DNA from: a virus
Length of the DNA stretch: 26,563 bases
Virus record (IMG/VR): IMGVR_UViG_3300038359_000069
Location: 1-26,563 of that record
Reading direction: 5' to 3' (one strand)
Shown here: in pieces, positions 15,691-26,563 of the stretch
Numbering within the stretch: position 1 is the stretch's first letter
How the letters are laid out: every line of letters starts with the position of its first letter
Made by a program: the position numbers and the translations under genes
The notes under the pieces: model-generated
Told to the model about the DNA's origin: nothing
The model's input: the letters and a program-made list of their open reading frames with translations, nothing else
Databases searched by the model: none

Positions 15691-16499
15691 CAATAGGACA
15701 GGTACAAGATGTGTATTTACAAAAGGTATTGTTAGATAAATCAACTGGTAACTATTCAATATTAAAAGAATACAAAGTTCCAAATCTTAAAACCATAACA
15801 ATTTCATTGAACAGTCCTGTATCCCCAATGCCATTGCCTGAAGAAGGAGCAGATGACAATATACTTATTAAGATAGAAGGAAACTCTGCAACTATGGCAC
15901 TTGCATGGACTATTAAAAATGAGGCAACTTCACCAATAACATTTCCAGCCGCTTCAACAATAACTGAACCTATTGAACAGGTTAATTACTTTATGAACGA
16001 GCCCGGTGATGGAGCATTTCAACCATCAAGTATAGAGGATAACTACAGAGTTCAAATTAAAGAAGGTTCTACTGTTGTATATGAGAAACTAGGATTCTTT
16101 ACAAAGTTTGCAATCTCATCCGGGGGGTCATCACCTGTAACATGGGAAATAAATACAACACTAATAATAGGAGATGTAATAACATCATATGAAGAGAAAG
16201 TACCAAAGAAACCTACAGGACTAGCACAAAGTGGAAGCAATGGTTCAGGAGAAATAAAACTTATATGGAATGAACCAAGCATAACAAACGGTACATTGAC
16301 AGGAACTATAGTAGCACATAGAAAAGAAGGTAAAGGATTCTTTACAAATGTAGCAACTGCTACAACAGACCCAAATGTATCATCAGAATATACATTGAGT
16401 GGATTAACATCAGGTGCAAAATATGACATAAGAGTTGCCTCTAAAGTAACCAATCACGGAGACTGGTCTGATATATTAGAGGGTGAAACTGCTGGGTAA
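15687..16499 (+). CDS. Distal tail protein with C-terminal fibronectin type III domain
   Basis: A 270-aa protein placed after the tape measure, where the distal tail (Dit-like) protein is usually found. The N-terminal 170 residues are beta-rich (YLQKVLLDKSTGNYSILKEYKVPNLKTITI; then VTWEINTTLIIGDVITSYEE) and resemble a tail-tip ring domain without a clear family motif. From about residue 173, PTGLAQSG ... IKLIWNEP ... EYTLSGLTSGAKYDIRVAS is a textbook FN3 fold, an accessory binding module common in phage tail tips. It overlaps the tape measure by 4 bp (ATGA) and the hub gene by 17 bp. Dit is inferred from position; a baseplate-peripheral protein is the alternative. Confidence 0.6.
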   Translation: MTIGQVQDVYLQKVLLDKSTGNYSILKEYKVPNLKTITISLNSPVSPMPLPEEGADDNILIKIEGNSATMALAWTIKNEATSPITFPAASTITEPIEQVNYFMNEPGDGAFQPSSIEDNYRVQIKEGSTVVYEKLGFFTKFAISSGGSSPVTWEINTTLIIGDVITSYEEKVPKKPTGLAQSGSNGSGEIKLIWNEPSITNGTLTGTIVAHRKEGKGFFTNVATATTDPNVSSEYTLSGLTSGAKYDIRVASKVTNHGDWSDILEGETAG

Positions 16500-18492
16500 G
16501 GTTAAATTATTAGTAGAGAAATATGTATCTGGAGTAATAGATGACAGATTTCCAGTAAGAGTACTAAGAGCAAGGGTTAAACAGGACGGAGATAGAGCAG
16601 TAGATTCAGCAGAATTTACAATCCCTATGACAGAAGAAGTAAAAATAGGAGACAGAGTAAAATACATTCAAGATGATGTTGAAACTAATAACTTGGCAGC
16701 CTTGTGGAATTTTAATTGTAACACATTAGATGAATCTGGTTATAGAAATGATGGAAATGATGGAACTCATACAGCCTCATTAACTCAATCGGCATCATCA
16801 AATGAATGGGTTGATGATATTCCAATTGTTACTAAAATTGTAGGTGCAACTCAGAAAGTAACCGTGGCAAATGCAACACATAAGATAACAGGTACACCTA
16901 ACGTATTAGATTTCACTAAGGAATTTGACATATTTTTGAGGGCGATAGACATACAAAAAACAGCAGCCGTAGAAGTATTATTCAGCAAAAGAGATGCAAC
17001 AGACGGAATAGAGATAGGAAAAACAGCAGCATTAGTACCATACGTAGACATAACATCATCCTCAAGTACACAGACTATAACAGGAACAACCGACATATCA
17101 TTAGATTGGAGTTTAATACGTGTTAGAAGAGACTCAGCAGGACTAGTACAACTGTTTGTAGATGGTGTAGAGGAGGGAACATCAGTAACTGACACAGCAG
17201 ACTTGTCTGTTACAGGCAGTGCATACTTTGGAGCAGATTATCTAGGTGCAAAAGGTGTAGCAAACGCACAATTTGGAATGTTAAGAATATATGTTAAAGA
17301 GAATCTATCAGATATCGATGCAGCAGCACTGTTAAATAACTTTAGACAACCACATACTATGAAATTTTCTGGAATTGTGTGGAAAATTAAAGAGAAAACA
17401 CATAGTAAGACAATATTCTGCAAGGGAGATAATAAAGTATTTGCAGAAACAGAACTTAATAAAAACATATTAGATTTAAGAGATGAATCAGGTAGCAGTA
17501 ATGGTGAAGATAATATATTTTTGACTACTGGAGGTAGTCCACTTACAACTGAAATAATTTTAAATCAGATTTTAAGTGAGGTTGATTCAGAATATGCTGT
17601 ATGCCAAACTTCAAACTCTTCAACGGCTAGAAATTTTATAGGAACTGGAAATCTTTTGGCAAATATACAATTATTATTATTAGCTGATAATGATGGATTC
17701 TATACATTGCCAAGAAAAGTATTGATTGTTGAGGATACTTCAGACGGTGATACCACAAACATACTTTTTGAGAATGGTAGATATGAAATAACAGAAACAG
17801 GTGAAGATGATTCAACAATGGTTAATGATTTAGAGGTAGTATCTGACGCTATACACAGAACTAGGTTAGAAGAATTCAACGGAACCGGGGCACAAAAAGC
17901 ATTCGTATTAGCAAAAGAACCAGAATCAATAGTAAGAATATCCATAGGAGGAGCAGTAAGTACAGATGCAGATTACACAGTAACCAGACGAGATAAGACA
18001 GTTACATTTGGAGCAGCCCCAGCTTCAGGAACAAATAATGTTGATATAGAATATAAGTTTGTAGATGACACATCAAACGTATTTTTATCAAGAAGTGTAG
18101 AAAATATAAGTATTGCTGCATATGGTAGAAAATCAAAACGACTTGATGCTTTAGGAGTTGTTGATACAACAGATAAAACCGGCATAGCAACAAATTATAT
18201 AGCAGCAAATAAAGATGCAAACAAGAGATTAAAAGTAATTGCCCCAACATTACTAAATTCTATTCGTATAAATAATAGTGTACAGATAGTGAACTCAAAC
18301 CTAGGTATCAATTATATTACTGGACAGTCACCAGATAGTGTTAAAATCAAATCTATTGAATGGTTATATCCAGAGGGTAAGACTACAATGATGTGTGGTG
18401 AACATCAATTTGATTCATATGACTTGGACAAGTTCACTACTGAGGTCGTGAGGGGAACCAGCCAGAGAACACTAGGAACTCAAACCCTTTAG
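16483..18492 (+). CDS. Tail hub protein with an inserted LamG-like domain
   Basis: A 669-aa protein with tail-hub (gp27/Tal-like) features. Residues 24-60 (RVLRARVKQDGDRAVDSAEFTIP ... VKIGDRVKYIQDD) start a hub domain that resumes near 291 with HTMKFSGIVWKIKEKTHSKTIFCKGDN. Between them, about 68-288, is a concanavalin/LamG-like module (LAALWNFN ... DESGYRNDG ... LVQLFVDGVEEGTSV ... LRIYVKENLSD), probably a sugar-binding insertion. The C-terminal half is beta-rich and ends near a DSYDLD tail, with further domains (FNGTGAQKAFVLAKEPESIVRISIGG) that may bind fibres. The GTG start at 16483 lies inside the previous gene; its ribosome-binding site (GAGGG) is tight, so the exact start is uncertain. 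Confidence 0.65.
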   Translation: MKLLGKVKLLVEKYVSGVIDDRFPVRVLRARVKQDGDRAVDSAEFTIPMTEEVKIGDRVKYIQDDVETNNLAALWNFNCNTLDESGYRNDGNDGTHTASLTQSASSNEWVDDIPIVTKIVGATQKVTVANATHKITGTPNVLDFTKEFDIFLRAIDIQKTAAVEVLFSKRDATDGIEIGKTAALVPYVDITSSSSTQTITGTTDISLDWSLIRVRRDSAGLVQLFVDGVEEGTSVTDTADLSVTGSAYFGADYLGAKGVANAQFGMLRIYVKENLSDIDAAALLNNFRQPHTMKFSGIVWKIKEKTHSKTIFCKGDNKVFAETELNKNILDLRDESGSSNGEDNIFLTTGGSPLTTEIILNQILSEVDSEYAVCQTSNSSTARNFIGTGNLLANIQLLLLADNDGFYTLPRKVLIVEDTSDGDTTNILFENGRYEITETGEDDSTMVNDLEVVSDAIHRTRLEEFNGTGAQKAFVLAKEPESIVRISIGGAVSTDADYTVTRRDKTVTFGAAPASGTNNVDIEYKFVDDTSNVFLSRSVENISIAAYGRKSKRLDALGVVDTTDKTGIATNYIAANKDANKRLKVIAPTLLNSIRINNSVQIVNSNLGINYITGQSPDSVKIKSIEWLYPEGKTTMMCGEHQFDSYDLDKFTTEVVRGTSQRTLGTQTL

Positions 18493-19153: not shown

Positions 19154-19306
19154 ATGCGTTTTAAAAATACGCTTGGTGGTTTATTTAAAATGTTAGAGAA
19201 AATTAACCGTGGTAATGGTATTGCTGAGAAAATTCAATTCAAAGAAGACATTAGAGTAACATTAAGAAATGAGTCAACAGGTAAAGTTAAGAGGATGACA
19301 GCATAA
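19154..19306 (+). CDS. 50-aa basic protein, hypothetical
   Basis: A small frame starting with ATG 5 bp past the previous stop and ending in a TAATG overlap with the fibre gene. The sequence MRFKNTLGGLFKMLEKINRG, then ...GIAEKIQFKEDIRVTLRNESTGKVKRMTA, is rich in Lys/Arg and has an amphipathic helix followed by strands. The tight coupling on both sides and protein-like composition make it likely real. It may be a structural linker or small fibre-assembly protein; no family is recognised. Confidence 0.6.
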   Translation: MRFKNTLGGLFKMLEKINRGNGIAEKIQFKEDIRVTLRNESTGKVKRMTA

Positions 19307-20484
19307 TGGCTCGAGTAGCAAAAGGTAAACACTCTACTACAGTAGTTGTAGCAGATGATGGTTCATCTCCGGTAGGAACAGATGAATGGAATGCAGCACC
19401 TCTTGATACAGGAATGGAGGGTAATACAGAATCAACTATTACAATCTCATCCGGGGAAATAACAGTAACAGACACAGTAACAATAGTAGCAGCAGAATCA
19501 GGAACAGCAGACGATTTAGACTTTGTAACTTATGCTAACACAAATGCAAACGACAGAATTTGGTTGTATGCAGACGCAGGAGATACTATAACATTAAGAC
19601 ATAATCAATCTCCGGGGGCAGGAGAAGGAGCATTCATAACAGCCTCAGCAGGAAGCATAACACTATCAGAAACAGTAGGAGTATTATTCATTAGAAGAGG
19701 AACTACATTCTACCAAGTAACAGAAGTCACAGTAGGAGCAGGAGACGCACTTGTAGCCAATCCTCTAAGTCAATTTGCAGCAACTACTTCAGCACAATTA
19801 GCAGGAGTATTATCTGATGAAACTGGTTCAGGTGCAGCAGTATTTGCAACTAGCCCAACACTTGTAACTCCAGTTCTTGGAACTCCATCAAGTGGAACTT
19901 TAACAAGTTGTACCGGATTACCAATTACAGGTATTACATCATCAACAAGTGCTGAATTTGCCACATTATGTAGTGATGAAACAGGTTCAGGTAGTCTTGT
20001 ATTTGCAACTAGCCCAACACTTGTAACTCCAGTTCTTGGAACTCCAACATCAGGTACATTAACTAACGCAACAGGATTACCAGCAGCAGGAGTTGTAGGA
20101 ACAGCAGCAGTATTGGGAGCAAATACTTTCACAGGAACTCAAGATTTAGGTGGACAAAATATAGATAACATTCAAAAAACAATATACGATATAACAGCAG
20201 TAACAAGTTCTACTACTATTACTATTGACTTTTCAACTGACGACCTTAATACATTAGCACTAGCCCACGATACTACTTTCAGTTCTTCTAACCTAGCAGC
20301 AGGTTTACAGATGGAAATTCATATAACAAGTGCAGCAGCACAAACACTAGCATTTCCAGCAGGTTGGACATTTTATGGAGATACACCTACTACTACTGTT
20401 GCAGGTAAGGATTCAATACTCTATCTAACTTCGCTTTCTACCACAGATGCAAGTGTAAAAGCTGTGTTTGTTGAGGAAGCATGA
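19306..20484 (+). CDS. Tail fibre protein with phage-type SPTLVTPVLGTP repeats
   Basis: A 392-aa fibre. The N-terminal 150 residues are Thr/Ala-rich beta structure ending with a binding-like domain (FVTYANTNANDRIWLYADAGD). Residues about 178-290 contain two copies of a module with FATSPTLVTPVLGTP(S/T)SGTLT and then GLPxxG. The same module is common in tail fibres of bacterial marine phages, suggesting exchange. The C-terminal 110 residues (IYDITAVTSSTTITIDFS ... LAFPAGWTFYG) form a beta domain, probably the tip. It overlaps the giant fibre gene by 4 bp (ATGA). Confidence 0.65.
   Translation: MARVAKGKHSTTVVVADDGSSPVGTDEWNAAPLDTGMEGNTESTITISSGEITVTDTVTIVAAESGTADDLDFVTYANTNANDRIWLYADAGDTITLRHNQSPGAGEGAFITASAGSITLSETVGVLFIRRGTTFYQVTEVTVGAGDALVANPLSQFAATTSAQLAGVLSDETGSGAAVFATSPTLVTPVLGTPSSGTLTSCTGLPITGITSSTSAEFATLCSDETGSGSLVFATSPTLVTPVLGTPTSGTLTNATGLPAAGVVGTAAVLGANTFTGTQDLGGQNIDNIQKTIYDITAVTSSTTITIDFSTDDLNTLALAHDTTFSSSNLAAGLQMEIHITSAAAQTLAFPAGWTFYGDTPTTTVAGKDSILYLTSLSTTDASVKAVFVEEA
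19840..20046 (+). repeat. 48-bp perfect direct repeat in the fibre gene
   Basis: Identical 48-bp blocks at 19840-19887 and 19999-20046 (starting GTATTTGCAACTAGCC), 159 bp (53 codons) apart. They encode VFATSPTLVTPVLGTP. Exact identity at the DNA level points to recent duplication or gene conversion. Confidence 0.75.
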
Positions 20485-23400
20485 CACATTACGTTCCACT
20501 CATTAAGACATTTCCAACCCAATATAACAAAATTGGTGTTATGGGATTCTTTGGTAGAGCAGGAGCAGCAGGTGCAGAATGGCTCACTTCATTATTAGAT
20601 TGGACTAAAAGAAAACCATTAACTATTGCAGGAGCAGAAAAAACAAACGCTGTATTTGGAACTGATGCAGACCAACAAATAGAAACATTTGCCACATATA
20701 CAGACCAAACAGATGCACAAGCTTCATGGGTAGCCAATGATGATTCAGACACACATAGGGTGGATGTTACAAATGATTTATTGGATTGCCACGCTGTATC
20801 AGATTTAACAAATGATAGTGTAGGTTATGATTTAGGATTAGTTGGTGACACTTGGACTTTAAGATATAAATGGAAAATGACAGCAAGAGCAGTTAATGGT
20901 ACTGGATGGGATATTTACACTATATTTGGTTTGTCAGATGATTCACAAGCAGTAAATGAAAGTACAGACCAACAAGGAATCGGATTTGGACATTACCAAG
21001 ATAATTTAATTAGAACATTCACTTCTACTTATGCCAATGAACATAATTTTAATGGTGAGATAGGTGCAACTAATAATAATAAAAATTTTACTCTTGTATA
21101 TTCGGCAGATGATATAACCGCTGGAACTGAATATTGGATTTCCCAATCACGATTAGATGCTACCCATGTTATAACAACAATTTATGGAGATTCAAATTAT
21201 ACAAATGCTATTGAAAGTCAAGTGATGGTAATACCTGATATTCAAAATCTTAGATATTTAGTGGCAAGAAATAGAATGAATGGTAATAATGTAAGTGGTT
21301 CGCAAACTATAGAAATTGATGATGTTCAATTTTGGAATAATGAGACAGTAGTAGAAAACCTACCTAGCCAACAAACAGCATTAGAAGAAGAAATAGGTAG
21401 TTTTACAAGTTACACAGAAACAGGGAGTGGTATAGATGTATCAAAAGGTACAAATGTAGTAGACTTTGATGTTAATAATACAACAATAAGAGATGATTCT
21501 GTTTGGAAAGATTTAACATCTATATCTGATACAATATGGAGATTTGATTTTGATATTGAAATAACATCATTAACAACAAACACAGACGTATCTACTCAAC
21601 AATTATTCGTGGCTCTTTCAAGTGTTGATGGCACTAATACTGTTGATTCGACTGCTGATACAATAGCATTTAGTATTAGAATGTGGAATAGTTCAACAAA
21701 ATTTACAGCTTCATGGGGAAATAATGAGAATTTAGTAATTAACCAAACAAATTCATCAATGACACCAGTGGTATCTACACCATATTATATTTCTATGGTT
21801 AGAACCAGTGATACTGCTTTTGACATTATTATTTATTCTGATAGTGCAAGAACAACAGTATTGGAAACAGTGTCAGTTACAGGTATGGATGCAAGTGGAG
21901 TCACATCATTACGATATTTAAAAATACAAGAACAAAATGATGATGCAACCTGTAACGGTACTTTAATCGGTACAGTGTCAAACGTCAAAGTATGGGAAAA
22001 TATTACAGAAGTAAACCCAACAACACTAACAGATTATGTACTCCCAGTTAGAATAATAGGAGATACTGATTTACAAAGAAAGACAGCAGGGGAATTGGAA
22101 GATACATTCACAGCAGATGATTGGACAAATGGTGTGGGAGATACAGTTTTTGTAACTACTGGAACAGGTATGATATGGGATGCTGGTGCAGTAGGTTCAG
22201 ATAGTGAATATATTGATATTGATGGTGCTACAATTAATGATACCAAATGGAGAATGGATTTTGATGTTCAAGTAGATAATGCAACACAAGGAGCAAGTGG
22301 GAGTAATTCAGAATTTTATGTCGGTATAGGTGCATCTAGTGGAAGTATATCAACTGCCCAAGACTGTATATACATGAGAGTGTTATTGGATAGTGGACAA
22401 GTATCAACCCGAATCTCAGCATCAACTAATGTTGCAATAGATTCTGGTGCTCCTACACATTCAGCGACATTACCATCATTTACAATGGGAGCAAGTAATT
22501 ATTATTTTACTTTACAAAGAGAGTCAGATGTATTAGCAAGACTAACAGTATTTGCAGATAAAGCAAGAACTATTGAATTGTCTACTATAACAGTTGCAAT
22601 TACAGCAAGTACAGTAACAAGTCTAAGATATGCCCATATTGGAACTAAAGATGAAGGTGGCGACCATACATTTGATGGAGTTGTTACAGCAGTTAGAGTT
22701 TGGGAAAATACATTAAATCCAGTTGACCAAGAAACAGCCACACATACAGAAGATTATGCTAGTGCTACTGGATGGACTACTGATGCAGGGAGTTTAGTAT
22801 CAATAACAGGTGGTATAGTTACTTATGGTGGAGCAGGTAATAATACAGACCACAGAATATCATATCCTATTTCAATGCCTGATGATAAATGGACTTGTGA
22901 TTTTGATTATAGATTTACAGATTCAGGAGTTGATGCAGCTGGATTTTATTTTAGTGATATTCAAGCAAAAATGTTAGGTACTGTAGATTATATAGGATTT
23001 AGAATAGATAACGGTGCAGGGCAAATGCAAATATCCACAAGAAAATCTACCACTTTAACTAATGGAAATGTATTAACAGCATTTACAGATGCCACTTGGT
23101 ATTATTGTAGATTATCTAGAAATGGTAAAACAATAAAATTAGAGGCATATACAGATAGTGATAGAACTATTTTACATGATTCTGATACCTTAGTAATTAC
23201 AGCAGATATTATAGGACTAGAATATATGAACCATGCAACTCCTGATAATGGTGCAACAGGTTCAGGTCAATCAGTTATAGATATGGATAATGTTTCAATT
23301 TGGAAAGGTATTGATTCTCCTAACGCAAATGGAAGAAAAATAGTATTCACAGATAATCTATTTGATACAGCAGGAACAGAGTATGCAAGTAAGACTATAT

Positions 23401-24932
23401 CTTATGACCCAATAGCAGGAGACCTAGAAGCAGAGGTTAGAATACCTACACTAACAATGGGTGCAGATACTACTATACAGATGTATTATGAATATGGTGC
23501 TACTACTCCAAGTTATGTACCAGAGGTTTTACCTACTTTGACAGCAGATGCAGAGTTTGGACTTAGTGGAACAGAGGTTATAGATGATATGACTACATAC
23601 ACAGACCAAACAGAAGCAAATCTTGGGTGGATTCCAAATAATAATGAAGCTGGTAACAGGGTTAACATTAGTTCTGATGAATTAGAATTTAATTTTACTA
23701 TGGATTCAACAAATGAAACAATAGTGCATGATTTAGGTGCTAGTATTGGTACTAATAATTTTGTTCTAAGATTTAAGACTAATTACTCTACTCTTACAGC
23801 AAGTGCAAATAATCAACATTGGTTCGGTCTATCAGATGGTGATGAAACAGAATCAGCATCAGATGCTCAAGACGGTATAGGTATAATACCTATTTACACA
23901 AGTGGTCATAAGAAATTCATTACATCATCACCTGACGGTGGAACTCCAATAAGTACAAATGATACTCTTGGAACTTATGCGTTAACCACTAGTGTAGACC
24001 TTTATGTAACTATTAGGAGAACAAGCACTACCACATATTTTGTAGAAATTAGAACTGGAAGTCATACAGGTACACTTGTAGAAGATTTTGGTGGAGTACA
24101 AACTTGTGAATCTACAATTACTGGATTAAGATATATTAAATTTGCTTGTCATGATTCACTATCAGAGAGTGGAGTACAACAAGGAATAATAGATGATGTG
24201 GAATTTTGGAGTAATGAAGGTTCAGTAACTCCTGTAAGAGAATCACATACTTATAACCCTAACTACAAAGGAGTTTATCACTTGAACGGTAATGCTTTAG
24301 ACAGTACAGTTAATGCTAATGATGCTGCAACTGAAAATGGTTCTCCAACTTCGACAGCATTATCAACAGGGGTAGGAATGAGTTTTGACGGTTCAAGTGA
24401 TTGGTATTCTGCTATTCCTGAATCCGATTTTGATTTTGAAAATACTGACCCAGTTGTAATAGAATTTCAAATTAAAACTACTGACACTTCTGCTGATATA
24501 TTTACTAAATTCGATTTATCAAATACAGGGTGGATAGTAGGAGTATCATCAGGAGCAATAATTGGTCAATGGTTAAACAATGATGCTTCCAATGCTTCTA
24601 AATGGATAGGAGATACAGCGATTAATGACGGAGAATTACATCATATATCATTAGTTTATTACGGAGATAAAGATACAGATTCAAACAGAATATTTATTGA
24701 TGGAGTTGAAGATACTTTTTCAAATAATCAAGACAATCTTACAAGTTCTACATTAAATGCAATATTACCATCTATTGGAGCTCGTTCAAATGGAAGTAAC
24801 CCATTTTTAGGCACATTAAGAAAACTATCAGCATACAAAGCATTACTTGGAACTTCTGCTATTCAATCAAGATACAACGCTGAAAAAGCAAATACTGATA
24901 TGATAACAAGTGGAACCGAAGTTACTCAATAG
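20481..24932 (+). CDS. Giant multi-domain tail fibre/adhesin (DUF2341 and LamG-like modules)
   Basis: At 1483 aa this is the largest protein. I see five repeats of a jelly-roll module of about 200 aa, most ending in an LRY ... (I/V)xxVxxW segment: near 65-300, 310-515, 535-755, 757-950 and 1033-1255. Pieces of a DUF2341-type domain lie between them: WTKRKPLTIAG (about 41-51), DYVLPVRIIGDTDL (near 518-531) and GRKIVFTDNLFDTAG with LTMGADTTIQMYYEYG (near 950-1015). A LamG domain follows (about 1265-1470, KGVYHLNGNALDSTVN). DUF2341-LamG pairs occur in surface sugar-binding proteins, so host glycan binding is likely. It is Asn/Thr-rich and lacks a visible enzymatic motif. Confidence 0.65.
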   Translation: MTHYVPLIKTFPTQYNKIGVMGFFGRAGAAGAEWLTSLLDWTKRKPLTIAGAEKTNAVFGTDADQQIETFATYTDQTDAQASWVANDDSDTHRVDVTNDLLDCHAVSDLTNDSVGYDLGLVGDTWTLRYKWKMTARAVNGTGWDIYTIFGLSDDSQAVNESTDQQGIGFGHYQDNLIRTFTSTYANEHNFNGEIGATNNNKNFTLVYSADDITAGTEYWISQSRLDATHVITTIYGDSNYTNAIESQVMVIPDIQNLRYLVARNRMNGNNVSGSQTIEIDDVQFWNNETVVENLPSQQTALEEEIGSFTSYTETGSGIDVSKGTNVVDFDVNNTTIRDDSVWKDLTSISDTIWRFDFDIEITSLTTNTDVSTQQLFVALSSVDGTNTVDSTADTIAFSIRMWNSSTKFTASWGNNENLVINQTNSSMTPVVSTPYYISMVRTSDTAFDIIIYSDSARTTVLETVSVTGMDASGVTSLRYLKIQEQNDDATCNGTLIGTVSNVKVWENITEVNPTTLTDYVLPVRIIGDTDLQRKTAGELEDTFTADDWTNGVGDTVFVTTGTGMIWDAGAVGSDSEYIDIDGATINDTKWRMDFDVQVDNATQGASGSNSEFYVGIGASSGSISTAQDCIYMRVLLDSGQVSTRISASTNVAIDSGAPTHSATLPSFTMGASNYYFTLQRESDVLARLTVFADKARTIELSTITVAITASTVTSLRYAHIGTKDEGGDHTFDGVVTAVRVWENTLNPVDQETATHTEDYASATGWTTDAGSLVSITGGIVTYGGAGNNTDHRISYPISMPDDKWTCDFDYRFTDSGVDAAGFYFSDIQAKMLGTVDYIGFRIDNGAGQMQISTRKSTTLTNGNVLTAFTDATWYYCRLSRNGKTIKLEAYTDSDRTILHDSDTLVITADIIGLEYMNHATPDNGATGSGQSVIDMDNVSIWKGIDSPNANGRKIVFTDNLFDTAGTEYASKTISYDPIAGDLEAEVRIPTLTMGADTTIQMYYEYGATTPSYVPEVLPTLTADAEFGLSGTEVIDDMTTYTDQTEANLGWIPNNNEAGNRVNISSDELEFNFTMDSTNETIVHDLGASIGTNNFVLRFKTNYSTLTASANNQHWFGLSDGDETESASDAQDGIGIIPIYTSGHKKFITSSPDGGTPISTNDTLGTYALTTSVDLYVTIRRTSTTTYFVEIRTGSHTGTLVEDFGGVQTCESTITGLRYIKFACHDSLSESGVQQGIIDDVEFWSNEGSVTPVRESHTYNPNYKGVYHLNGNALDSTVNANDAATENGSPTSTALSTGVGMSFDGSSDWYSAIPESDFDFENTDPVVIEFQIKTTDTSADIFTKFDLSNTGWIVGVSSGAIIGQWLNNDASNASKWIGDTAINDGELHHISLVYYGDKDTDSNRIFIDGVEDTFSNNQDNLTSSTLNAILPSIGARSNGSNPFLGTLRKLSAYKALLGTSAIQSRYNAEKANTDMITSGTEVTQ

Positions 24933-24942
24933 GTAGATTACA

Positions 24943-26547
24943 ATGGGTGCATTCCAACACAATGTTTTTCAGAAAGATGTTTTTCAGGGAGCAGACTCAA
25001 TAGCACTAACAATAAATGAAACCATAGAAGTACCAGATGACAAGCAAGGAGTATTTCAAAACAACATATTCCAATCAAATGTATTCCAAGGTACAGTAGG
25101 TGGACTTGTTAAAGTAATGTCTCTTGTAAGATTTATTAATGAAACTGAGGCAATATCTGACCCTAATGTATATGTTAGAGCATTTGTAAGAAAGATTAAT
25201 GAGACTGTTCAAGTTATTGATACTATTTCCCCACAACATGATTGGGTAAGAGCAATTAATGAAACCATGCAAATTTCAGAAGGAGTAAGAAAGACTAGAG
25301 ATTTGGGGAGAATAATAAACGAAACATTAGCATTATCAGAAAACATACACAAGGCAAGAACTTTGGTAAAAGAAGTAGCAGAGACAGTTAACCTATTACA
25401 ACCTATTGCTTTATTCCAGACCAACGTTTTCCAAGCAGGTGTGTTCCAAGGTGTGACTGGTAGGGGTGTTGTTAATTTGGTGGGCAAGACAAGATTTGTA
25501 ACAGAGACAGTACAATTTGCAGAAGCAATAGTAGAAGTACCACAAAGAATCAAGATATTATCAGAGACAGTAAGAATATCAGAGACAATTCCAAAGGCAT
25601 TAGCATTAGTTAGACGAGTGAATGAAACACTACAAATTTCCGAGGGAATAGTAAAAACAAGAGACTTGGTAAAAGAAATAGCAGAAACAATTGCAATATC
25701 TACATCAGTAGTAAGACCAATGACTATGGCAAAGGTTGTAGATGAGACAGTCCAAGTATTAATGGTAAATGCAAAAGTATTCCAGTCATCTGTGTTCCAA
25801 TCTGGAGTATTCCAAATGGGTACAGAAGTAGTTAAACTGTTAGGTATTAAACGTGCAGTTGATGAAACAGTACAAATCTCAGAAACAACAAGTAAACCAA
25901 TCAATGTGGTAAGAGTTGTCGATGAAACATTACAACTCATAGAAGCATATCTCATGTTATTACCTAACTTTATCAATAATAATGGTGCATTAATTCTCGC
26001 AGTGAATGAGACAATGAGGGTATTTGACGGTTTAAGAATGATTAAACATAAGAGATTCATTATTGATGAAACTGTGCAATTGGCTGAAACATTAGCCAGA
26101 CCTATTGTGATACTTCGAAACATAGCAGAATCTGTAGCATTATCCGAATCAATATTTAATCCAAAGACAATGTATAGAGTTATAGATGAAACTGTAGAAA
26201 TATCTGAATTCATTAAAAAGGTAGGATTAGTAAGAAAGATTATTAATGAAACAGTTGCCTTAACTGAAGCAAATGTAAGGTCAATGTCTATTGTTAGAGC
26301 TATCAATGAGATAGAACAATTGATTGAAATACACACATCTGATAACAGAATTCTCAATAACCTCAGAAAGATTATCAATGAGACAGTTCAGATTTCGGAG
26401 GCAAAGAATGAGATAAGAGAACTAGTAGGAAAGATAGGAAGAAAAGTAAAGACAGCAGCTACATCAGTAAACATACGTGTAAAGAACGTATCTGGTAAGC
26501 TTAAATCTGGTCAGGGTACTAAGAACGTGAGGACACCTAGTTCATAA
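24943..26547 (+). CDS. Repeat-rich tail-associated protein (ETVQISE and FQxxVFQ repeats)
   Basis: A 534-aa protein made almost entirely of repeats. About 20 copies of a 19-25-residue unit carry a core like INETVQISE, varied as VNETLQI, VDETVQV or VAETVNL; a hydrophobic/basic stretch (such as LVKEI or VVRVV) precedes the core. Four FQxxVFQxxVFQ blocks occur, at about 4-15, 36-49, 159-171 and 277-290. FQ-triplet motifs are also seen in structural proteins of bacterial tailed phages. Nine cores contain Asn-Glu-Thr, a match to the N-glycosylation sequon N-x-S/T. The C-terminal 40 residues are basic (GKIGRKVKT ... NVRTPSS). It lies 10 bp after the giant fibre and is probably part of the same adhesion apparatus. 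Confidence 0.6.
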   Translation: MGAFQHNVFQKDVFQGADSIALTINETIEVPDDKQGVFQNNIFQSNVFQGTVGGLVKVMSLVRFINETEAISDPNVYVRAFVRKINETVQVIDTISPQHDWVRAINETMQISEGVRKTRDLGRIINETLALSENIHKARTLVKEVAETVNLLQPIALFQTNVFQAGVFQGVTGRGVVNLVGKTRFVTETVQFAEAIVEVPQRIKILSETVRISETIPKALALVRRVNETLQISEGIVKTRDLVKEIAETIAISTSVVRPMTMAKVVDETVQVLMVNAKVFQSSVFQSGVFQMGTEVVKLLGIKRAVDETVQISETTSKPINVVRVVDETLQLIEAYLMLLPNFINNNGALILAVNETMRVFDGLRMIKHKRFIIDETVQLAETLARPIVILRNIAESVALSESIFNPKTMYRVIDETVEISEFIKKVGLVRKIINETVALTEANVRSMSIVRAINEIEQLIEIHTSDNRILNNLRKIINETVQISEAKNEIRELVGKIGRKVKTAATSVNIRVKNVSGKLKSGQGTKNVRTPSS

Positions 26548-26563
26548 TCCTTATTAAGTATGG

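Follow-up and report, generated by a model that had tools for sequence, protein, structure and literature searches.

A candidate adhesin gene of a tailed archaeal virus, with apparently exchangeable modules nested in a split DUF2341-like domain

Background

Changes of host range in tailed viruses are mostly ascribed to mutations in loops or swaps of terminal parts. Here we describe a gene in a stretch of viral DNA, record IMGVR_UViG_3300038359_000069, positions 1 to 26,563 (26,563 nucleotides; hereafter the window), in which whole modules appear to have been replaced inside another domain. This gene (20481–24932, + strand; one intact open reading frame (ORF) of 1483 amino acids (aa)) is a candidate nested adhesin built on a frame of the DUF2341-LamG kind. 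Canonical DUF2341-LamG proteins (PF10102 followed by PF13385) occur in archaea and viruses, the proteins L162 and L252 among them, and in the part of PMC4858521 consulted here DUF2341 is proposed to be an adhesin domain located at the tips of type IV pili in archaea. As far as the consulted portions of the papers go, constant frames with variable parts that contact the host are also found in the T2-type gp38 adhesins (PMC12892980) and in those of the hafunaviruses, haloarchaeal viruses in which a hypervariable region holds the adhesin gene that sets the host range (PMC8651126).

The window protein shares with the canonical proteins the strand order, the YYG-type end of DUF2341 and the (D)xNYKAVYHL-type entry into LamG. 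However, the canonical DUF2341 is uninterrupted, whereas that of the window would be split twice, with a fifth module in the linker to LamG. Another likeness is offered by the viral DUF2341-LamG protein L166, in which an F5/8 type C-like domain (PF00754, E 4.3e-6, 27.3 bits, just below the cut-off of 28.2) is nested in a DUF2341 loop. This protein differs in that it has one insert, in another loop (after strand 4, as judged by eye) and of another module family; modules of the window kind were not found in it. In gp38, according to the part of PMC12892980 consulted, variable loops are flanked by glycine-rich motifs, whereas in the window protein it is whole modules of ~200 aa that appear to be exchanged, and a reading of its sequence by eye revealed no glycine-rich motifs of the gp38 type. 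The frame also recalls PilC of S. sanguinis (PMC9934059), a modular pilin in which an immunoglobulin-like beta-sandwich is followed by a glycan-binding ConA-like module. However, PilC is a pilin, nesting of the window kind is not described in the consulted part of that paper, and the fold likeness lies mostly in the common LamG part. Structure 7oa7 aligns with residues 60–328 of a model of L162 (Z 9.2, root mean square deviation 3.8, 165 residues aligned). The other PDB matches of this model involve mostly its LamG part and include sialidase lectin-like and neurotoxin binding domains, which are taken as sharing the common fold only; a sequence search of solved structures gave three matches, all to the LamG part.

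A split DUF2341-like core

The DUF2341-like core of the protein is discontinuous (aa 37–56, 516–536 and 946–1012), with gaps of 459 and 409 residues. The layout is 2+2+1: modules M1 and M2 lie in the loop between strands 1 and 2, M3 and M4 in the loop between strands 2 and 3, and M5 between DUF2341 and LamG. Two orthologs from other metagenome records, L192 (1279 aa, truncated at the 5' end) and L247 (1417 aa, full length), have the same 2+2+1 nesting where it is visible. The parts of the gene, with the basis of each assignment or its identity to the orthologs, are as follows.

20589–20648 (+), aa 37–56: core piece 1, putative DUF2341 strand 1, DWTKRKPLTIAGAEKTN (motif and profile tests; 10/19 identical to L247)
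20649–21344 (+), aa 57–288: module M1, site A (module repeat comparison)
21345–21389 (+), aa 289–303: conserved M1-M2 linker, ending VENLPSQQTA (11/15 and 12/15 identical to the orthologs)
21390–22001 (+), aa 304–507: module M2, site A (module repeat comparison)
22002–22103 (+), aa 508–541: junction and core piece 2, putative strand 2, LTDYVLPVRI (22/34 identical to both orthologs)
22104–22700 (+), aa 542–740: module M3, site B (module repeat comparison)
22701–22751 (+), aa 741–757: conserved M3-M4 linker, ending NPVDQETATHTEDY (8/17 and 11/17 identical to the orthologs)
22752–23300 (+), aa 758–940: module M4, site B (module repeat comparison)
23301–23522 (+), aa 941–1014: junction and core piece 3, RKIVFT..VRIPTL..MYYEYG, putative strands 3–6 (39/74 and 40/74 identical to the orthologs)
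23523–24233 (+), aa 1015–1251: module M5, site C; another module family in L247 (module repeat comparison)
24234–24929 (+), aa 1252–1483: C-terminal Laminin_G_3 domain with the conserved entry NPNYKGVYHLNGNALDST (PF13385, E 3.4e-9)

The Pfam model PF10102 seems to cover only the portion of DUF2341 from 'DGSDIRF' onward, as an approximate DUF2341 string matched it only from the string's residue 40. Because the model is apparently partial, a full-length DUF2341 hidden Markov model (HMM) was built from 19 viral domain sequences, some of them from the same protein. Against this HMM, pieces 1, 2 and 3 joined in that order score 27.2 bits, compared with 13.5 bits for piece 3 alone, 14.5 for pieces 1+3 and 13.7 for the order 2-1-3. 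When pieces were replaced at random, in 2000 trials each, 27.2 bits was reached 0 times for pieces 1+2 (maximum 22.8), 0 times for piece 1 and 0 times for piece 3. A profile of the joined cores of the window protein and both orthologs also matches a canonical DUF2341-LamG profile (hhalign probability 99.3–99.4, E 2e-20 / 4.9e-21; 92.9 for piece 3 alone against DUF2341). The match is collinear over 136 columns, spanning the whole length of the core and including the NYK(G/A)VYHL entry into LamG. Scored with a profile of the orthologs, the three pieces reach 76.7, whereas the best of 60 random splices scores 54.6, the swapped order 58.9 and the core lacking piece 2 58.2. In ungapped motif comparisons, WTKRKPLTI (aa 41–49, in piece 1) is by far the protein's best match to DUF2341 strand 1 (19.0 bits versus a shuffled maximum of 6.8 +/- 2.4, equalled in 0/500 shuffles), and the VRIPTL..MYYEYG block scores 10.2 versus -3.9 +/- 3.6 (1/500 shuffles as high).

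A preliminary description of this DNA had read the three separated pieces as strands of one DUF2341 domain with pairs of modules between them. Both points are borne out by the joined-core match, the random splices, the common split in the orthologs and the finding of two repeats in each of the two loops; M5, a third insertion before the C-terminal Laminin_G_3 domain, had been missed. As judged from these profile comparisons, the core is a divergent, split DUF2341-like domain rather than a Pfam member, and the collinear match together with the same split in two orthologs argues for insertion into loops of one such domain. In the model of the canonical L162, the first 100 residues have a predicted local distance difference test (pLDDT) score of 86–96, the LamG part being modelled poorly, and strands are found at 6–12, 21–30, 48–50, 60–66, 71–81 and 87–93. 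The insertions map just before strand 2, before strand 3 and, for the third, after strand 6. Thus, the loops are the insertion sites. The pieces of the split core are predicted to pack together. PF10102 was also searched over 50 related records; its one match, below cut-off and inside the PD-(D/E)XK nuclease homolog of G010, was dropped.

The modules

The five repeats are about 200–235 aa long and share 15–29% mutual identity in a multiple alignment. Modules 1 and 5 had been described as the most alike, which holds for the z score of the pair (24.0, the highest; 29% identity, E 7e-17) but not for the BLAST E-value, which is lower for M2-M3 (31%, E 3e-19). The M3-M4 pair is also similar (27%, E 1e-9), and the pairwise scores of M1-M3 and M4-M5 are insignificant (z -0.6 and 2.1). 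Recent tandem duplication of the modules was considered and rejected, as their DNA is similar only in short patches.

A Foldseek search with a model of the nested chain (pLDDT 50) places laminin LG domains at the top (E about 1e-10), followed by galectins, with matches ranging to 1e-6. The modules are thus predicted, on a low-confidence model, to be beta-sandwiches of the LG type (laminin G/ConA-like). When 16 modules of the family, five of them the window's, were searched against Pfam, one matched Laminin_G_3 (E 0.0017). A Pfam scan of the whole protein gives weak sub-threshold matches only, such as Laminin_G_2 at aa 833–889 (E 0.0051, 17.7 bits, under the cut-off of 22.9), and a PHROGs search gives none. 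Laminin_G_3 (PF13385) is not listed in that whole-protein scan; aa 1252–1483 scanned alone match it above cut-off (37.5 bits versus 27.6).

With an iterated profile, the module family was found in 12 ORFs of a first set of related contigs, which include the window's own ORF and that of contig L002. It was also found in 25/75 loci that had been fetched by a small gene downstream of the INET gene (the repeat gene at the 3' border of the locus, below), some of these loci being identical or near-identical records; usually there are one to three modules per gene. Frame and modules occur together only in L192 among the 75 loci (DUF2341 HMM 14.1 bits, core HMM 212.7 bits).

A constant frame with variable modules

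In the islands (core pieces, linkers and the entry into LamG), L192 and L247 share 153/178 aa (86%), made up of the M1-M2 linker (14/16), piece 2 (27/34), the M3-M4 linker (12/17), piece 3 (70/75, 93%) and the LamG entry (30/36). Modules M2–M5 of the same two proteins are 27% identical (196/738; 49/182, 59/192, 46/188 and 42/176, respectively), and the remaining LamG is intermediate (108/191). Comparisons with the window give 99/176 for the islands and 185/774 for M2–M5 in L192, and 104/176 and 147/723 in L247, for which M1 (59/196) can also be compared. The segment limits were fixed after the first alignment of the window with L192 had been inspected. A sliding window blind to these limits reaches at least 50% identity only where the islands lie, at piece 1 when the window is compared with L247, within LamG and at the C-terminal end; the one exception is a stretch of M3 (aa 688–717), in both comparisons with the window.

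Searches for further members were made in several ways. Two more ortholog scans yielded no new nested members; one gave only the three known ones, and the other added six loci with modules only (L256–L261), in which the HMM finds no core. The core HMM, run over related contigs and loci, matches only the window, L002 and L192, and pattern scans with the protein or the core return only the window's own virus (L002/L150). A frame pattern search of cellular genomes gave 57 pattern matches and no relatives. Named phages searched by tblastn, with either the full protein or the spliced core as query, yielded nothing or a single weak match, which involved the LamG part (E 0.1).

Probable replacement of modules

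Outside the adhesin gene, the DNA of the L192 and L247 loci matches only in two short downstream stretches. Within the gene, the matching blocks are the linkers (85 base pairs (bp), 78%; 56 bp, 86%), piece 2 (133 bp, 85%), piece 3 (246 bp, 91%) and a stretch through LamG (877 bp, 75%), and corresponding module bodies have no DNA match. An additional match of 40 bp (85%) connects M3 of L192 with M1 of L247, that is, non-corresponding places. At shared amino acids, 13/64 four-fold sites differ between the two genes in the five islands, compared with 52/87 in M2–M5 (Fisher p 1.2e-6), a module figure that alignment errors would raise and that includes M5, which is non-homologous in L247; when M5 is left out, the comparison is 38/65 versus 13/64 (p 1.2e-5).

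Furthermore, when 13 modules were compared with each other and with 39 modules of other genes, only one (B_M3) paired best with its positional counterpart. The best match of A_M3 is the stand-alone gene L199 (37%), and that of A_M4 is G021; W_M2 matches best with G021 and G046, and W_M5 with L242. The different module family at site C of L247 has relatives in the same locus of G017, G037, L191, L183 and G045/L223. Among the stand-alone genes of the adhesin locus, many pairs share only islands, mostly of 40–190 bp at 75–100% and situated at termini and linkers, and a few share a whole module at 81–90%. From the boundary of the last module onward, L217 and L214 share 6.2 kb at 99.5% identity, and upstream of it they share only islands, with different modules between; their last module itself is 100% identical.

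The low four-fold divergence of the islands, together with the non-positional best matches, suggests that modules were replaced within a constant frame rather than having diverged in place; they look exchanged. The preliminary description had proposed growth by insertion into surface loops. Of this, insertion stands with the profile and ortholog data. Growth calls for qualification: the three known members share the 2+2+1 plan where it is visible, and the data point to replacement within this fixed frame. Homologous recombination in the islands would be the simplest route of exchange; a Rad51 gene is present in G002, the closest record.

The locus and its virus

The window is probably part of a tailed archaeal virus related to the HVTV-1/HCTV types: by tblastn, its portal and major capsid protein match those of HVTV-1 at E 2e-27 (24.2%) and 1e-19 (25.6%). 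Record G002, which has a portal 100% identical to that of the window, encodes MCM as well as Rad51. Contig L002 is 100% identical to window positions 23312–26563 (the last 3252 bases) and extends to further genes, which include a PD-(D/E)XK nuclease and the terminase. In records of tailed archaeal viruses, the adhesin locus lies between the tail genes and the terminase region, and its gene content varies among relatives. Its two borders are recognised by synteny in relatives.

19306–20484 (+): fibre-like gene, 392 aa, upstream of the adhesin gene; 5' border of the variable locus
24943–26547 (+): INET(V/L)QISE repeat gene; 3' border of the locus

Complete homologs of the INET(V/L)QISE repeat protein in relatives span 417 to 3020 aa. 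The terminase matches, at 91%, a fragment in L265 (JADFGB010000028.1), a contig in a Bacteroidetes metagenome-assembled genome; L265 is probably a misbinned viral contig, with the host staying archaeal. A marine thaumarchaeote is a guess at the host, made from a likeness of the INET repeats.

Several other features of the window were noted. On the strand opposite to the virion genes lie a matrixin-type metalloprotease gene (300–1010, -; Peptidase_M10, E 8.9e-18; HEFGHGVFGLPHS) and its small neighbour (1274–1525, -), which carries HEWLHG; these are judged unusual cargo for an archaeal tailed virus. The tail protein encoded at 16483–18492 contains a LamG-like stretch (aa 166–271; Laminin_G_3, E 3.4e-4, below cut-off) that is seemingly internal to the chain. 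Of 20 homologous ORFs from related records, most have a stretch that aligns with it, at an identity similar to that of the rest of the protein, so that it looks like an older, fixed insertion. In the close strain G001, the portal, protease, capsid, adaptor and two genes past the tail module are 99–100% identical to those of the window, and the tail tube, tape measure, hub and their neighbours are just 28–41% identical. From these identities, the tail module looks as if it has been swapped as a block between close strains.

Proposed model and alternatives

Taken together, these results have led to a model that we consider probable as a whole, namely a nested DUF2341-LamG adhesin with exchangeable modules. 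In this model, the gene encodes a tail-associated adhesin on the virion surface of an archaeal tailed virus. Its DUF2341-LamG frame would offer three fixed sites to five LG-type modules: the loop between strands 1 and 2 and that between strands 2 and 3 would take two each, and the linker between DUF2341 and LamG would take one. The frame would be anchored by DUF2341-LamG, its strands and the linkers between modules would stay constant, and the modules would be displayed on the loops. Module bodies would be exchanged with a pool of adhesin modules in related viruses, most simply by recombination within the conserved islands. Glycans or proteins of the host surface would be the partners that the modules contact, such that exchange would alter the attachment target. 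The architecture, the constant frame with its variable modules and the signs of replacement are all seen at the level of sequence. More tentatively, and with slightly less than an even chance in our estimate, the strand-coding DNA and the linkers may serve as fixed homology islands by which co-infecting archaeal viruses swap receptor-binding modules in the loops of a scaffold. The frame would then be, equally tentatively, both the structural and the recombinational chassis of a plug-in adhesin.

However, it should be noted that a number of results weigh against this model. PF10102 (gathering score 23.4 bits) has no match in the whole protein at E up to 1, nor in the pieces, spliced cores or controls at E up to 10. 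The strand-2 and strand-3 motifs alone are insignificant (387/500 and 191/500 shuffles as high), and in the motif scan the proposed strand-2 site comes fifth, with the proposed strand-3 site outside the top six. Piece 2 is the weakest part of the core, since a random piece 2 reaches 27.2 bits in 9/2000 trials (median 18.6). AlphaFold, run on aa 30–1014 with a three-sequence alignment, gave no confident nested model (pLDDT 50.2, predicted template modelling score 0.32), and the core pieces have a pLDDT of about 23–30, 26–47 and 30–50 in it. Only three nested members are known, one of them truncated. Furthermore, the frame is not uniformly constant, as the remaining LamG varies: it is 19–20% identical between the window and the orthologs (35/184 in L192, 37/181 in L247) and 57% between L192 and L247, and its four-fold divergence (20/48) is intermediate. 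L217 begins near the breakpoint that it shares with L214, where a chimeric assembly is possible, and no exchange was observed among strains nearly identical to the window virus. Finally, the location of the protein in the virion and its binding to a receptor are predictions.

The last point leaves room for a protein that, in place of being a receptor-binding adhesin, decorates the virion or forms part of its structure, or is secreted and lectin-like. This alternative, which agrees with the failure to identify a catalytic or binding motif, seems unlikely to us. The gene sits in the tail-gene cluster at a locus that differs between relatives, and its frame is of the type proposed for adhesins of archaeal pili (in the consulted part of PMC4858521). 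Since the locus is variable and follows the tail genes, receptor binding is likely.

Alternatively, the modules could have been inserted once and then diverged in place under strong diversifying selection, with no exchange between genes at all. The 2+2+1 plan common to the three members, where visible, would fit such a history, as would the positional partnership of B_M3 and A_M3 at 30%. However, at four-fold sites L192 and L247 diverge about threefold less in their islands than in their modules, the best match is non-positional for 12/13 modules, and a different family occupies site C of L247. Thus, we regard divergence in place as quite improbable and exchange as the preferred explanation. 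It is less probable still, even with DUF2341 undetected by Pfam, a pLDDT of about 23–50 for the pieces and two strand motifs that are insignificant alone, that the protein is a plain string of beta-sandwiches whose linkers resemble DUF2341 strands by chance, as the profile match is additive, order-dependent and ends in the canonical NYKAVYHL junction, the pieces rank among the best-conserved parts between orthologs, and uninterrupted canonical DUF2341-LamG proteins with the same junction exist.

Implications

Some elements of the nested adhesin model are already known, namely constant frames with hypervariable parts, as in gp38 (PMC12892980, consulted in part), and an F5/8C-like domain nested in DUF2341, as in L166. 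A narrow literature search, which covered titles and the openings of abstracts, met no nested adhesins. What seems new is that several whole modules sit at two loops and the linker of a single scaffold and are replaced from virus to virus while the frame is kept; piece 3 stays 93% identical between two viruses, L192 and L247, whose downstream genes barely match. Unlike changes in loops or terminal parts, the exchangeable unit here would be a complete module inside another domain. The gene would thus provide a natural example of domain grafting at multiple sites and a means of studying how uncultured archaeal viruses choose their receptors, with a module pool and junctions that are defined well enough for module-by-module binding work.

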